Assembly (NCBI GenBank): GCA_030388825.1 | Contig: CP128835.1 | Span: forward strand, 3,032,001 to 3,096,000 | Length of the DNA: 64,000 bases | From: Rossellomorea sp. AcN35-11 | GTDB taxonomy: Bacteria; Bacillota; Bacilli; Bacillales; Bacillaceae_B | Direction: 5' to 3' | Shown: one piece after another, positions 48,512 through 62,909 of the stretch | Layout: each line of letters starts with the position of its first letter | Numbering within the stretch: position 1 is the stretch's first letter | The notes under the pieces: generated by a model | Database searches by the model: none | What the model was told of the DNA's origin: nothing | The model's input: only the letters and a program-made list of their open reading frames with translations | Made by a program: the position numbers and the translations under genes

Positions 48512-50682
48512 TTATTCCTCTTCTGTTTCCTGATTTTCCGTTTCTTCAAGCTCTTCAGCATTTCGGACTTCTTCTTCGGTGGAAGAGTCAAAGTATCCGT
48601 CTTTTTCGTACTGTTTCTTCAGTTCGAAGTATTTGTCCATTGCCCGTTTGGCGATCGTTTTATTTACATAAGGATCTTTATTTTGATGAGAATATGGCAA
48701 CACGACAGAAAACGCCACTTCCGGGTTGTTGTATGGGGCATAGCCGACTAATGTGGTGTTGAACGTACTGTACTGTCTCTTTTCTTCGGGACTGTAATAA
48801 AAAGCCTCTGCCGTTCCTGATTTGGCTGCCGCGTCATAAGCCGCGTTTCTAAAGACTGTTGCTGTACCGTTCCCCCCATGTGTGACTTGATAAAAGCCAC
48901 GTTGAACTTGTTGAATTTCTCGTTCAGTCGCATCGATACGGTTCAAGACTTTTGGATCGTTCTCATATAAAAGCGGCCCCACTTTACCCCTTTCCCTGCT
49001 TGGTTCGCGAATTTCTTTCATGATATGAGGCTGCATACGATATCCGCCGTTGGCAATGGTGGAAGCGTATTGAACAAGTTGCATAGGTGTATATAAATCA
49101 TACTGACCAATGGCGAAGTCCATAAGTTTACCTGGTTTTTTTTCGTTTCCTTTTAGTCCCTCAACCTCACCCGGGAGATCTATTCCGGTTTTGACCCCTA
49201 AGCCAAACTGGCTGTAGTAATTTCTCATTGTATCAAATGCTTGGGGATTAATATTTAATGGTTGATTTGGACGATAAGTGGCATCTGCAATTTTAAAAGC
49301 TGTCTTAAACATGTACACGTTCGATGAAATTTCGAGAGCACCGATATCACTCAAGTATCTTGAACCACTGAACCAAGATTTCTTGACTTTAGTATCCTTT
49401 ATCTTAATCGGTTCATCATAAAGCACATCCCCGACGTTCAATGCCCCTGTCATATACCCCGTCAACACAGTCGCACCCTTAACCGCTGATCCTACTCCGT
49501 ATTCAGAGGTAAACGTTCCTAAAGCATAATCCTGCATCTCGGTCTTACCCTCGGCATTCTTGCCATATTTCTTTCCGACCATGGAAAGGATTTCACCAGT
49601 ATATGGATCCATCATCACAACAAATGCACGGTCGAGGAATGGGGATTCCCAGTATTGAGATGCTTGTTTACTTAATTCTTCCTCTACGATTTTCTCGATT
49701 TCTTTCTGCAGTTGAAGGTCGATGGTCAATACGACATCTTTTCCGCTGTGACCTTCGCTTATCAGCTTGGTATCTAGGACACTTCCTTTTTTTTGTTATG
49801 TACTCAATTTTTTCTTTTTGTCCTTTTAGCACATCTTCGTACTCCGATTCAAAATAGCTTGTTCCTACCCTGTCATTTAGAGCGTATCCGAGAGCCTTGT
49901 ATTCATTGACTAGTTCACTAGGAAGACCCTGCTGCGAGGTCGAGACTCTACCCAATATCGTTCTTAGGGTATGATCATGCACATATCTTCTTTCCCAGTC
50001 AGTGGTAACGTTTACACCTGGAAGTTCAGATAAACGCTCACTTACCCGTGCCATCTCTTCCATGGACACATCTTTATTTTTGATGATTTGTGGCGTAAGG
50101 GCATATCCCCGTATTGAATTCACGGAAGATAGCCAGTACTTCCTCTTCTTCCTTTGAGAATGATTCGATGTCTTTTTCGCTGATTCGTGCAAGCTGAAGC
50201 TCATATACCATTTTGTTGACGTCATCCTTTGACAAATCTTCATTGTCTTCCAGCTTTTTTAATTCTTCTTTGGAAACAAGCTTTTCGGCTTTTTCAGGAT
50301 GACTTAACAGCCAGAAATCTTTCCGGTCCCGATCTGTGATTTTATCTGTCTCCATATCGATATACACAGCTAAATCCCTTGCGACCTTCAGCATTTCCTC
50401 AGGCTTCGTCGTCTGTGTTCTCGTGTAAGTGATGGCATTTAAAGGAACGTTGTCCACAATCACATTTCGATACCGGTCATAGACCTTGCCCCTCGGAGGC
50501 GTTCCATTATGTGATTTAACGTTTTCGGTTCTTGCCACTTCTGCTTCATAATGGTTTCCCTGCACGATCTGTACAACCCCAAGACGAAGAATCAGAAGTG
50601 AAAATAGAAAAAAGACCGAAATAAACAATAGATTCATTCTCAATGGTACATGGGTTTTTTTCTTTTTCTTCTTTTCCTTCAC
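48512..50682 (-). pseudogene. Class B penicillin-binding protein (PbpA/PbpH type), two frameshifts
   Basis: Three frames together encode an N-terminal anchor (MNLLFISVFFLFSLLILRL, about 16-34), a dimerisation domain (VYDRYRNVIVDNVPLNAITY and GYALTPQIIKNKDVSMEEM) and the transpeptidase domain with GSAVKGATVLTGY (SAVK, SxxK type), SSNVYM (SSN) and AKSGTAEAF (KSGT). Extra bases lie in the C4 run 50107-50110 and the T8 run 49787-49794. Removing both gives 722 residues against 716 for B. subtilis PbpA, an elongasome PBP for rod shape. ATG 50680-50682. The C-terminal Glu-rich tail (EELEETENQETEEE) is typical of the family. Confidence 0.87.
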
Positions 50683-56644: not shown

Positions 56645-56782
56645 ATGAAAAAACTAAAAACCAGTCTCACTCAACTAATAGAACAGAACAAGAATGAAAT
56701 CTTAAATGATAAGAAAGTCATGGAAGGTATCGAAGAAAAGATAGATCAAAAATATTCTTCAGCCGAGGAGGATTTTAAATGA
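56645..56782 (+). CDS. FbpB-like small basic protein
   Basis: 45 residues: MKKLKTSLTQLIEQNKNEIL, then NDKKVMEGIEEKIDQKYSS. It matches the FbpB pattern (basic start, S-x-x-x-LI-x-x-N-K, ILNDK, IEEKI-x-x-K). In B. subtilis FbpB is Fur-controlled and works with the small RNA FsrA in iron sparing. Here no Fur box is seen; instead a manganese riboswitch lies upstream. AAGGAAG precedes ATG 56645. Its TGA overlaps the ATG of the Spo0M-like gene by four bases, so they are coupled. Family assignment is by eye. Confidence 0.65.
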   Translation: MKKLKTSLTQLIEQNKNEILNDKKVMEGIEEKIDQKYSSAEEDFK

Positions 56783-57168
56783 TTTTAAGGAAATATATGT
56801 CATTAATTGGTGTGGGTTCTGCAAAGATTGACCTTGTTTTACCAAAAAATTCGTTCAAACTAGGTGAACTCCTCCATGGCTATTTCTTTCTGGAAGGAGG
56901 GATTATTGAACAAAAGCTCAAGCGGGTAGAATGTGACCTGGTGATGCTCGATAACAATGGAAAGAAAGAAAAGATCATTGACTCTACTACTGTATTAAAG
57001 TCCGACAGCATCAAAGCTGAAGAACGAAACAAATTAGCCTTTACCTATAGAATACCTGAGACTCTTCCATATTCAAATGAAAACGGGGTACGATACCTTT
57101 TCAAAACCAAGCTCACGTTCGATCAAGGTGTGGAGAGTTACGACGAAGATTATATTTCTATTTGTTAA
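56779..57168 (+). CDS. Short Spo0M-like arrestin-fold protein
   Basis: 129 residues. GVGSAKIDLVLPKNSFKLGELLHGYFFLEGGIIEQKLKRVECDL matches the Spo0M N-terminal domain, and YLFKTKLTFDQGVESYDEDYISI closes the fold; the second Spo0M domain is missing, as in its paralogue at 50995. GGAGG ends seven bases before ATG 56779, inside the end of the FbpB-like gene. The pair is controlled by the upstream manganese riboswitch. Role unknown; a link to manganese or to sporulation is inference. Confidence 0.72.
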   Translation: MILRKYMSLIGVGSAKIDLVLPKNSFKLGELLHGYFFLEGGIIEQKLKRVECDLVMLDNNGKKEKIIDSTTVLKSDSIKAEERNKLAFTYRIPETLPYSNENGVRYLFKTKLTFDQGVESYDEDYISIC

Positions 57169-59319: not shown

Positions 59320-59511
59320 TTACTCACCTCCTCCTCCACCACCATCACCTCCGTCAAATCCACTATCTGAGGTGTTCGAGAATTCACTGCCTCCTGTCCC
59401 GTAATAGCCTCCGTCGTTACTTTTATGGTCTCTTCTGGGTGAACCTGTGAGATTTAATACAATAATGAAAAACACAATTGGGGTTATAAGGATGAAAAGT
59501 ATACCTGACAT
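59320..59511 (-). CDS. Small membrane protein with glycine-rich tail
   Basis: 63 residues: one membrane helix (MSGILFILITPIVFFIIVLNL) and a hydrophilic Gly/Asp/Ser-rich tail ending SGFDGGDGGGGGGE. GAGGTGATGTT precedes ATG 59509-59511. The tail would be disordered. The Gly-rich run is compositionally striking, but no family is recognised. Stop 47 bases before the alpha/beta hydrolase gene. Confidence 0.6.
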   Translation of the reverse strand: MSGILFILITPIVFFIIVLNLTGSPRRDHKSNDGGYYGTGGSEFSNTSDSGFDGGDGGGGGGE

Positions 59512-59715: not shown

Positions 59716-60273
59716 TTAATCTACAATATCTGCTGAAAAACTAGGTTTGGTTAAGCCTGCTTCTTCATATAAAGCAGCCATTTTTTCCTCAAACGAAGCA
59801 AATTTTTCATCTGATTCTGCATATTCAGCATTTGCTTCATCTGAAAGGTTAGCAGCTCTTGTTTCATAAGAAGAAGCAAGATCTTCCAGGGCCCCTTGGA
59901 TTTCTTCTTCTTTAGCATCTAGTGCAGCAGGCACTTCAAGAGCCCGAACGTCCTCTGCCACGGTTTTTGTTGCAGCTTCCGCATCAGCCTTCATCTTGGC
60001 GATTTCTTCATCAGAGGGCTTGTCTTCTTCTTTAGCCTTTGCTGATTCAAAGGCGTAGATCGCTGAATCATTTGCATTCACTGTGTCAATGATCTCCATT
60101 TGATAGTCTAATAGAGCGCTCTTCATTTCTATTCCATCTGATTCAGACGTTTCCTTAGGTTCTTCAGCAGTTGTTTCCTGTTCTGTGTCAGTTGAGCTAT
60201 TGTCATCGCTGCTGCAAGCAGCAATAAATAAGCTCATTGAGAGTAATAGAAATGGTAATAATAGTCTTTTCAT
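59716..60273 (-). CDS. Acidic lipoprotein of unknown function
   Basis: 185 residues. Signal peptide with lipobox IAAC (Cys near 20), then a low-complexity Ser/Asp/Thr/Glu stretch (20-50) and a helical, Ala/Glu-rich domain. No catalytic motif is seen. Comparable to other Bacillus lipoproteins with coiled-coil bodies, such as the DUF6376-type one at 17239. ATG 60271-60273 with GGAGGATG upstream. Monocistronic. Confidence 0.65.
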   Translation of the reverse strand: MKRLLLPFLLLSMSLFIAACSSDDNSSTDTEQETTAEEPKETSESDGIEMKSALLDYQMEIIDTVNANDSAIYAFESAKAKEEDKPSDEEIAKMKADAEAATKTVAEDVRALEVPAALDAKEEEIQGALEDLASSYETRAANLSDEANAEYAESDEKFASFEEKMAALYEEAGLTKPSFSADIVD

Positions 60274-60596
60274 CTTACATCCTCCTCAAAATTCATTTCT
60301 TCCAGATACATATTACCTTATATTATATAAAATGTAAACAAATGGATATACCTATGTATGATTCGAAATAGTTCAGGTGAAATGAATAGCGATTTGTGTA
60401 TAGGAACTGGTTTCATTGGGGTAAGTATTTGGTTGGATTCAATGAAAATAATAGATATTATTGCGTTCTTGTTTGATTGAATTTAACTCATCCAGGAATC
60501 TTTCATCCTATAACGGAGCTGGTTAATTAATGTATGCATTTAGTCATTTTGGAAACGATGAATAAGGAAACAATCAGATATAGGAGGTGCCGGATC
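60274..60596. other. 323-base intergenic region, no further gene seen
   Basis: Holds the promoters of the lipoprotein gene (minus) and of the cysteine-rich miniprotein (plus). TATTGCGTTC and TTAATTAATGTATG occur, but no clear promoter pair or hairpin was found. Confidence 0.4.
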
Positions 60597-60681
60597 TTGG
60601 TGAAAAAGGAATGTACATGTGACCGCTGTACATGCAAAACGAAAAAAAGAATGTGACTGTCCGTGCTGCTGTGAAAAATAG
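60597..60681 (+). pseudogene. Cysteine-rich miniprotein, metallothionein-like, frameshifted
   Basis: From TTG 60597, with GGAGG nine bases upstream, the frame reads MVKKECTCDRCTCKTKK and then stops after one extra base in the A7 run 60642-60648. Removing it gives 27 residues with nine Cys in CTC-x2-CTC-x4-CDCPCCC order, ending EK. Such density suggests a small metal-binding or redox protein like a metallothionein; no His is present. It has its own terminator. Too short for database certainty, but the ribosome site, Cys pattern restored by one base and terminator agree. Confidence 0.5.
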
Positions 60682-60682
60682 A

Positions 60683-60723
60683 GAAACCCCCTGAACGCTC
60701 ATGATGCATTCAGGGGGGTTTTA
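60683..60723. terminator. Bidirectional terminator
   Basis: AAACCCCCTGAA (60684-60696) pairs with TTCAGGGGGGTTT (60709-60721). It serves the Cys-rich gene and the converging acyl-CoA dehydrogenase gene. Confidence 0.85.
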
Positions 60724-62407
60724 TTATGCCCGCACGTTTATGCCTACAATCTCATCAAAGTATTGGACGGATTTCATCTCGTTATCCACCCATTCAGTTT
60801 GATTCCATGTCTGCTCGATAAATACTTCAGCAATCATCCGCTTTCTGTCTCCCCTCATTTGATGGGCATCCTTCAAGGCAATGACACTTTCAAAGATTTT
60901 AGCCATTAATTCAGCAATTCTCTTTGCATGGTAGGTTTGACTATCTGCTTCTGCCCCCAATACTTTATTCAATACATGTTCGAGGGTAGTGATCCCTTCT
61001 CTTACCGGATCGCTAATTGCCAACAGATCTGATGGAAGATTCGATAGCTCTTCTTTCATTTTATTTATAAAATAAACGTGTGCCTGGCTCTTATTCATAA
61101 GTCTTACTACTTCCAGGCCTAAAATGTTCGCCGTGCCCTCCCATACCGTCAATACCTGAGCATCCCGAAGCAGTCTCGGAAGGACGAAATCCTCGATATA
61201 CCCATTTCCTCCGTGCATTTCTATTGCTTCATGAGAGAAGTGAATCGCCTGTTCCGCCGATTCTTTTTTTAGAATCGCGATAAGGAGTCTATTCAGAACC
61301 GACTCCTCTTCGGTTGTTGGAATATCGTCCGAAACGACCCGATCGAAAAGATTTACGAGGGAAAAGACTGAACTGGTTTCTACTTCCTGTTTTGCTGCCA
61401 AACGGGTCAAGGTTTCTTTAATCATCGGGAACTGATGCAATGGCTGACCGAATGCCTCACGGTAGAACGCATAATTCCTCGCTTCAACATAGGCCCTTCT
61501 CATGATTCCGATGGAGGCGACAGCATTGCAGACACGGGAAAGATTCAGCGCCTCCATCATATAATAGATACCGCGACTGGGCTCACCCACAAGATAAGCT
61601 TCAGTACCTTCGAATTCCACTTCTGCTGATGGGACCGCCCGGACACCCAGTTTATCTTTCAATCTTCTGATGCGAATCCCATTTAACGTGCCATCTTCTT
61701 TTCTCCATGGAACAGCGAAAAGGCTGAGTCCTTTTGACCCATTCCCTGATCCCTCAATACGTGCAAGAACCATGGCCACTCCGCACATTCCCGAATTGGA
61801 TGCAAAATACTTTTCACCGAAAAGCTGATACGTATCACCATTATTGACAGCTTTCGTTTCATTGGCACCAACATCTGAGCCTCCCTGACGTTCTGTTAAG
61901 AAAGTCGCCCCCTCATATAATTCAACTTCTCCAGTTGAAAGGACATGTGGCAGAAATTTCTCTCTCACCCTAACGGATGCATATTTTTCAAGAAGGAGCG
62001 CCGTTGCCATAGAGAGAGTGACAGGACAGTAGAAACCAGGTTCAGATTGGGATAACAGATAGCCCTGGGCATAGGAGTACACATAGTTTCCTTTGTGACC
62101 CAAGTCGGGAATGTCCTTATGGATATAGCCGACTATCCCTTTGTTATATGTTTGGTGTACAGTTTTCCGATACCCTTCATTCACCCATATGGAAGAAATT
62201 TCTTCACCCAATCGATCATATCTGATCAGCTTTGGCTGCCCGGCACGATCTGTGTGTCCCGCTCGTTCATCTATGTCACCAGCACATAGTTCACCGAAAG
62301 AATCCAGCTCCTGATCTGCCCATGTAAAAAAAATTCTCATTCAAATATTGCTTTAGCAACTCCTTGAAATGCGGATCTTCTCGATAAAAGTTTTTAATTT
62401 TCTTCAT
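60724..62407 (-). pseudogene. Acyl-CoA dehydrogenase, AidB-like, frameshifted at the N-terminus
   Basis: The main frame has ATFLTERQGGSDVGANET near 150 for FAD, KLGVRAVPSAEVEFEGTEAY and EMHGGNGYIEDFVLPRLLRDAQVLTVWEGTANILGLEVVRLM, the AidB-type end with Glu in WEGT. The true N-terminus begins at ATG 62407 (MKKIKNFYREDPHFKEL), after AGGAGGTGAA, in another frame; removing one base from the A8 run 62326-62333 joins them as NENFFTWADQELDSFGE, 560 residues. It oxidises an acyl-CoA, perhaps branched or medium chain. Followed upstream by a MerR-type regulator with a matching palindrome. Confidence 0.83.
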
Positions 62408-62516
62408 CATTTCACCTCCTGTATTTCCCCGCATAACACTTGTTTCACGTTCTTTTTATACGGTGTAATTTCCTTCAAAAGTACAGGTGTTTTATAAGTT
62501 GTCAAACTTGAGATAC

Positions 62517-62909
62517 TCAATTCATTTCCTCCTTTGACTCAATTAATCTATTGACAAATTCATCCCTCAGTTCGACCATTTCTTCTTTCATGACTTCAAG
62601 TTCTTCAATAAATGATGTCACCTCCTGAATTCTTCTGTTTCCATATTCAACAGTGCGTTCTAATTGCTTCCTTCCCGTTCGATCATGGTCAAATAGCAGG
62701 ACCATCTCTTTGATTTCATCCAAGGAAAATCCAAAACGCTTTCCCCTTAAAATCAACTTAAGTTTGGTAATATCACCATTGGAATAGATCCTCCTTCCGG
62801 AATCGCTCCTTTCAGGACGCAATAAATGTAGTTCCTCGTAATACCTTAAGGTACGTGTACTGACGTTAAATTCCTTAGACAATTGAGTAATCGTGTACAT
62901 CATCATCAT
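62517..62909 (-). CDS. MerR-family regulator, LiuR-like
   Basis: 130 residues. TITQLSKEFNVSTRTLRYYEELHLLRPERSDSGRRIY is the winged helix-turn-helix, then FGFSLDEIKEMVLLFD and a long coiled-coil helix. There is no metal-binding Cys pair. This plan matches LiuR-type regulators of acyl-CoA and branched-chain catabolism. It starts within four consecutive ATG codons (62898-62909); AAAGAG is a weak ribosome site. It lies 110 bases upstream of the acyl-CoA dehydrogenase gene on the same strand and a TTGACGTTAACGTAAA palindrome stands before it. Confidence 0.75.
   Translation of the reverse strand: MMMMYTITQLSKEFNVSTRTLRYYEELHLLRPERSDSGRRIYSNGDITKLKLILRGKRFGFSLDEIKEMVLLFDHDRTGRKQLERTVEYGNRRIQEVTSFIEELEVMKEEMVELRDEFVNRLIESKEEMN

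Follow-up and report, generated by a model that had tools for sequence, protein, structure and literature searches.

Metallothioneins are very small proteins in which 15-35% of the residues are cysteines, with CxC and CC motifs and without aromatic residues. The bacterial SmtA/BmtA family, which we take to be Pfam PF02069, has members of about 56 residues, and the fungal type I Cu-metallothioneins, known for example from Neurospora crassa and Agaricus bisporus, form one domain of about 25 residues.

Before the work on Pseudomonas, SmtA and MymT were the only bacterial metallothioneins that had been studied functionally, both in connection with metal detoxification, as stated in the part of PMC7387436 used here. 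The same part describes a Zn3Cys9His cluster in a Pseudomonas member of the SmtA/BmtA family, and a divergent SmtB/ArsR repressor for cyanobacterial SmtA members, not for Pseudomonas (PMC7387436). MymT of Mycobacterium tuberculosis, a Cys-rich protein of 4.9 kDa needed for copper resistance, goes back to a small ORF that was originally non-annotated (excerpt of PMC7558416). The beta domain of human MT3 binds zinc with its nine cysteines in a Zn3Cys9 cluster, fungal metallothioneins with seven cysteines bind about six Cu(I), and every cysteine of a CCC run in a fungal metallothionein takes part in Cu(I) binding (excerpt of PMC13107397). A Cys-rich metal store of another kind is Csp3 of Bacillus (PF03860), which has been linked to copper supply in sporulation (excerpt of PMC9484137).

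The window, a stretch of 64,000 nucleotides from Rossellomorea sp. AcN35-11 (contig CP128835.1), contains a short gene for a conserved 27-residue protein with nine cysteines, which is probably a miniature metal-binding protein made during spore formation. Like the SmtA/BmtA proteins it is small and Cys-rich, but it has half their length, shows no sequence match to them, lacks a zinc-finger part and has histidine in only 3 of 27 intact relatives. It resembles MymT as a small, Cys-rich, easily overlooked ORF; this comparison is one of description, and no NCBIfam match was obtained. MymT differs in its size and in its requirement for copper resistance. The fungal type I proteins, likened here by description as well, agree in size and in having one domain and possess fewer cysteines. 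The animal beta domain has the same number of cysteines but is part of a larger protein, and there was no match in the PDB, searched both by single sequence and by profile. Csp3 differs in being a four-helix bundle under sigma-K; the mini-protein gave no DUF326 match (Pfam, E up to 10) and is, with its 27 residues, too short for such a bundle. Csp3 (PF03860)/DUF326 repeats were detected by family search in 34 of the 36 genus genomes, so the mini-protein does not replace Csp3; a test for a complementary distribution of the two found none.

The mini-gene and its parts

The sequence-only reading had proposed a 27-residue ORF with nine cysteines, hidden by a frame error in a run of A and accompanied by a ribosome site and a terminator. 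All of these parts were recovered. At 60597-60681 two frames overlap and are split within the A run, with nine cysteines between them. The first piece (60597-60656, + strand) begins with a TTG start codon at 60597, contains four cysteines (CTC, CTC), ends in this assembly with a stop at 60654-60656 and matches positions 1-17 of a profile of the protein (E 6.8e-5 in the search of the 36 genus genomes). The second piece (60637-60681, + strand) lies in the next frame, reads KRKKECDCPCCCEK followed by the stop at 60679-60681, contributes five cysteines (CDCPCCCEK) and matches profile positions 14-27 (E 5.1e-5 in the same search). A Shine-Dalgarno sequence, AGGAGGTG, which was read directly and is kept in relatives, lies at 60582-60589 (+ strand), 7 nt 5' of the start codon.

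Downstream, a terminator-like stem-loop at 60687-60717 is common to the mini-gene and a convergent acyl-CoA dehydrogenase gene. The terminator scan calls it on the - strand only; its stem also folds on the + strand, where the T tail was seen by reading. The window itself and 24 of 27 relatives show this + strand fold. No Rfam family reached its gathering score in the window, which speaks neither for nor against a regulatory RNA here. We regard it as virtually certain that 60597-60681 encodes a real protein-coding gene.

Conservation and selection within Rossellomorea

In a DNA search the site matched 24 of 34 other genomes of the genus, whereas one blastn search of 26 genomes outside the genus gave no match. 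In all 19 of the matching loci that were fetched the ORF is uninterrupted and shows the same Cys pattern. A protein profile built from 14 intact peptides finds the mini-protein in 28 of 36 genus genomes, in the own genome as two pieces and in 27 others as one open frame; among these 27 is another genome (G061) from the same species. Since the remaining 8 of 36 genus genomes gave no profile match, the mini-gene must be dispensable.

Relatives had been named in the sequence-only reading as the place to look for an intact frame, and a missing ORF or altered Cys spacing there as evidence against it. The outcome speaks for that reading: an intact frame is carried by 27 of the 35 other genus genomes, and all nine cysteines are kept with the spacing C-x-C-x2-C-x-C-x5-C-x-C-x-C-C-C in 27 of 27; F, W and Y are absent from every one of these relatives, and histidine occurs in three. 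The position of the start codon is shared by 24 of 27 relatives (19 TTG, 4 ATG, 1 GTG), and in the other three (G026, G027 and G034) the start is an ATG one codon further on. Nonsynonymous sites are far less variable than synonymous ones, with a mean pN of 0.098, a mean pS of 0.789 and a pN/pS of 0.12 (325 pairs from 26 intact rows; the motif of the script failed to pick up one of the 27 copies). This difference together with the invariant Cys spacing indicates a protein-coding gene, and strong selection acts on its protein.

Upstream element and sporulation

The sigma-F/G consensus comprises a GYWTA-like -35 element and the -10 element GGNNANNNT, separated by 14-15 nt. Besides the Shine-Dalgarno sequence, the most conserved block upstream of the mini-gene in the alignment of relatives is GTATG-N14-GGNNANNNT. 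In the window it corresponds to a putative promoter of the forespore sigma-F/G type at 60532-60559 (+ strand), with GTATG at 60532-60536, a 14-nt spacer and GGAAACGAT at 60551-60559. A long form of the element occurs in the own genome without mismatch once, at the mini-gene, and with at most two mismatches at 8 places, compared with 2 for a reversed control. A strict forespore pattern, G[CT][AT]T[AG]-N14/15-GGNNANNNT, which was settled after the sequences had been seen, is present in 20 of 28 mini-gene copies including that of the window, with a spacer of 14 nt in 19 of these 20; shuffling of two-base blocks gave a mean of 0.22 and a highest value of 3 among 28 copies. All these promoter counts stem from related rows and are therefore not independent.

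Four control genes of known sigma dependence were aligned in the same genus. The scored loci amounted to 25 of 30 fetched for sigG, 22 of 30 for gpr, 27 of 30 for spoIIR and 19 of 30 for rsbV, and the stretches were chosen after alignment. The upstream alignments display GCATA-N14-GGAAATACT for sigG, GAATG-N15-GGTAAACAT for gpr, GTTTA-N15-GNCCANACT for spoIIR (among the matches listed) and GTTTA-N14/15-GGGTAA for rsbV. The strict pattern was found in 25/25 sigG, 1/22 gpr, 0/27 spoIIR and 0/19 rsbV loci, so that not every known forespore promoter of the genus conforms to it. A loose pattern was found in 23/28 mini-gene copies, 25/25 sigG, 18/22 gpr, 26/27 spoIIR and 0/19 rsbV loci. A sigma-B pattern (GTTT-type -35 and GGG[AT]A -10) was present in all 19 rsbV loci and in none of the others (sigG 0/25, gpr 0/22, spoIIR 0/27). 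With 0 of 28 mini-gene copies against this 19/19, a sigma-B promoter was rejected.

According to the part of PMC5942855 used here, the two elements of the sigG promoter are 14 nt apart in 14 of 15 Bacilli, and most of the B. subtilis sigma-F promoters compared have a spacer of 15 nt. As the layout of the element resembles the sigG promoter of the genus and not the sigma-B promoter of rsbV, expression in the forespore is suggested. The element is moderate evidence for this time of expression, and we incline slightly towards a mini-gene expressed in the forespore.

Upstream of spoIIR itself a strikingly conserved block, TTTTACTAGTTTAAG, was noticed in the genus beside GTTTA-N15-GNCCANACT (L069-L098; among the matches listed). 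The whole is probably a sigma-F promoter combined with another site.

Neighbourhood and alternative locus

Tail to tail with the mini-gene lies a gene for an AidB-like acyl-CoA dehydrogenase (60724-62340, - strand; Pfam Acyl-CoA_dh and AidB_N), whose N-terminal part is in another frame, as seen against the same-species genome. This arrangement, with the stem-loop between the two genes, is found in 24 of 27 relatives. On the other side a divergent gene (59716-60273, - strand) encodes a protein that is lipoprotein-like by eye and belongs to no Pfam family; when loci of about 3 kb were compared, 16 of 27 relatives had a match to it upstream of the mini-gene. Twelve window proteins, namely 11 neighbours and an overlapping 40-residue frame, were scanned, and there was no transporter, peptide-modifying enzyme or ArsR protein among them. 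The only regulator among them belongs to the MerR family; it is encoded beyond the dehydrogenase gene (62517-62909) and contains no cysteine. A leader-peptide reading was rejected, because what follows the mini-gene at the main locus is a convergent gene behind the stem-loop. Of the eight genomes that lack the mini-gene, seven possess a close copy of the dehydrogenase gene without such a Cys-rich ORF within 700 bases behind it, and the eighth (G002) has only distant dehydrogenase relatives. A 63-residue ORF with a Gly/Asp-rich tail at 59320-59511 (- strand) gave a weak match to the YxzE-like putative bacteriocin family PF25184 (33.2 bits, cut-off 40).

In G026, G027 and G034 the mini-gene is situated at another locus (L059 1498-1581, - strand; L060 1498-1581, - strand; L061 1492-1575, + strand). 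Here it is divergent from a gene of the ArsR family in all three, and a GMP-reductase-like gene follows on its own strand, likewise in all three; both families were named from L059, where a gene for an MFS transporter comes after the regulator gene. Neither the stem-loop nor the strict promoter pattern is present at this locus, and the mini-protein has a variant N-terminus containing histidine. The ArsR-like protein has 205 residues and no cysteine. The layout is comparable to that of smtA and smtB and may be taken as the best hint of control by metal, found only in the clade of these three genomes.

Family searches and distribution

Four intact members were compared with Pfam and NCBIfam at E values up to 10, where the HMMER filters may drop weak matches, and no family was found. 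The search of PHROGs with two members gave no match, nor did those of phages and plasmids (tblastn) and of IMG/VR. Applied to a sample of 397 genomes of the order, the profile recovered 15 genus genomes, the own one included, and one further match (L064) that was rejected as false, since it lies on the strand opposite a long ORF, PTS-like by eye. In a sample of 398 genomes of the class only the own genome was recovered. In the named collection 155 stretches fit a peptide pattern, and 14 loci encode a relative, all from organisms labelled Rossellomorea, Bacillus sp. or [Bacillus] enclensis. The peptide strings searched were not found in the open-access papers covered, nor was there anything on the protein among the papers listed. 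Because none of these collections nor the PDB yielded a match, and no other genus was convincingly matched, the mini-protein is, judged by its sequence, a new family, seen in one genus and not filed in the SmtA/BmtA family. Neither this confinement to one genus nor the promoter element of the forespore type had figured in the sequence-only reading.

Metal binding and possible function

With 9 cysteines among 27 residues (33%), CxC and CCC motifs and no F, W or Y, the protein has the composition of a metallothionein, and the label metallothionein-like chosen in the sequence-only reading is apt. The short gene would give rise to a cytosolic protein without a signal peptide (by eye) and without any aromatic residue. 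Its transcription would most likely start in sporulation from the forespore promoter of the sigma-F/G type and end at the stem-loop common to the convergent gene. The nine thiolates (CxC, CxC, CxC, CCC) would most likely form one metal-thiolate cluster; a secreted disulfide peptide is the poorer fit, since the cysteines are odd in number and crowded. We infer from this that the protein likely binds metal through such a cluster, which might hold three Zn or other divalent ions, or else several Cu(I) ions. In the developing spore the protein may then buffer or store a thiophilic metal, or protect the spore.

Taken as a whole, a one-domain thiolate-cluster protein of the metallothionein type in this genus, probably expressed in the forespore and acting as a metal buffer, store or protectant in the spore, is the best reading and has about an even chance of being correct. 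A bolder version is conceivable, though rather unlikely: a dedicated forespore metallothionein, restricted to the genus and of independent origin, that would supply the spore core with stored Zn or Cu, bound to its thiolates, or shield it from metal damage, for dormancy or outgrowth. If true, the protein would in our judgement be among the smallest bacterial metallothioneins, thiolate metal buffering would be tied to dormancy, as the stationary-phase metallothionein of Pseudomonas hints, and metallothionein-like proteins could arise anew inside one genus.

The main rival is a vegetative metallothionein, responsive to metal or to general stress, that detoxifies Zn, Cd or Cu, the upstream block then being an operator or a promoter of another type. 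Such roles are known for SmtA with zinc and MymT with copper (excerpts of PMC7558416 and PMC7387436), and at L059, L060 and L061 the mini-gene is divergent from a gene of the ArsR family as smtA is from smtB. The ArsR-like protein there is devoid of cysteine, however, as is the MerR-family protein that the scanned neighbours of the main locus offer as their only regulator, and the promoter element follows the layout of sigG while the sigma-B pattern is absent throughout. We therefore hold a vegetative role to be unlikely, if still worth considering.

The abundance of cysteines and the small size would also suit a thiol redox buffer, a disulfide peptide or a modified (RiPP-like) peptide that stores no metal, and in one relative (L056) a gene for a DsbA-like thioredoxin lies upstream. 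Against this stand the lack of a signal peptide by eye, the odd number of cysteines with their CCC run, the failure to find maturation or export genes among the scanned window neighbours and the missing family match, all of which make it an improbable explanation. That the ORF has arisen by chance within a conserved regulatory RNA or a shared terminator region could be considered since promoter block and stem-loop, both outside the ORF, are conserved too. This is next to inconceivable: the variation at synonymous sites is eightfold that at nonsynonymous ones, and three relatives keep the ORF at a locus that has no stem-loop.

Frame break in this assembly

Annotation can easily overlook a gene of 27 codons that begins with TTG, and in this genome an error of the assembly has very probably hidden it further. 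Around the mini-gene, 22 indels over about 33 aligned kb separate this assembly from the same-species genome. A test of 33 ORFs of G061 with at least 80 residues marked five as broken in this assembly; in three of them (722, 569 and 1026 residues) the frame changes, and in the other two there is an in-frame stop. In the reverse test, with 36 ORFs taken from this assembly, coverage by G061 was incomplete for two, and two were marked as broken in G061, namely an ORF of 82 residues and a piece of the interrupted 722-residue gene. A larger comparison of four regions with G061, over 154,255 aligned bases, gave 27 frame-shifting indels (length no multiple of three) within G061 ORFs of at least 100 residues, among them a deletion of 13 bases and a pair whose members compensate each other; only 4 indels lie solely inside an ORF of this assembly. 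This asymmetry, together with the fact that 22 of the 27 are insertions in this assembly, mostly within single-base runs, points to an insertion-prone pattern of sequencing error. The dehydrogenase gene beside the mini-gene is frame-broken as well, and among the copies seen the break in the mini-gene is specific to this assembly.

An alternative would be a break that is real in the strain, leaving a pseudogene, or a programmed frameshift. The break is present in the assembly, the A run could slip, and a smaller comparison with the same-species genome, covering three loci of about 11 kb, gave no single-base indel but one 20-base gap. Yet the mini-gene is in one frame in 27 of 27 matching relatives, and other long genes of the assembly are broken likewise, as the 27 frame-shifting indels in 154 kb attest; a real break or frameshift is thus highly improbable. 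In accordance with the sequence-only reading, which had blamed a frame error for hiding the ORF, we attribute the break to an assembly error with great confidence.

Long genes interrupted relative to the same-species genome lie at 48515-50682, 62327-62434 and 65999-69077, the last in a numbering continued past the end of the window. Since such errors are numerous in the assembly, none of its gene breaks should be taken for biology. The contamination stated for it is 9.23%, and its 4.82 Mb are divided into two contigs of 4.19 Mb and about 628 kb, compared with a total of about 4.2 Mb in the same-species genome; the second contig is either a large plasmid or contamination. A Spo0M-like ORF at 56779-57168 (+ strand) spans only positions 1-134 of a 213-position profile and is cut short, perhaps by a further frame error.
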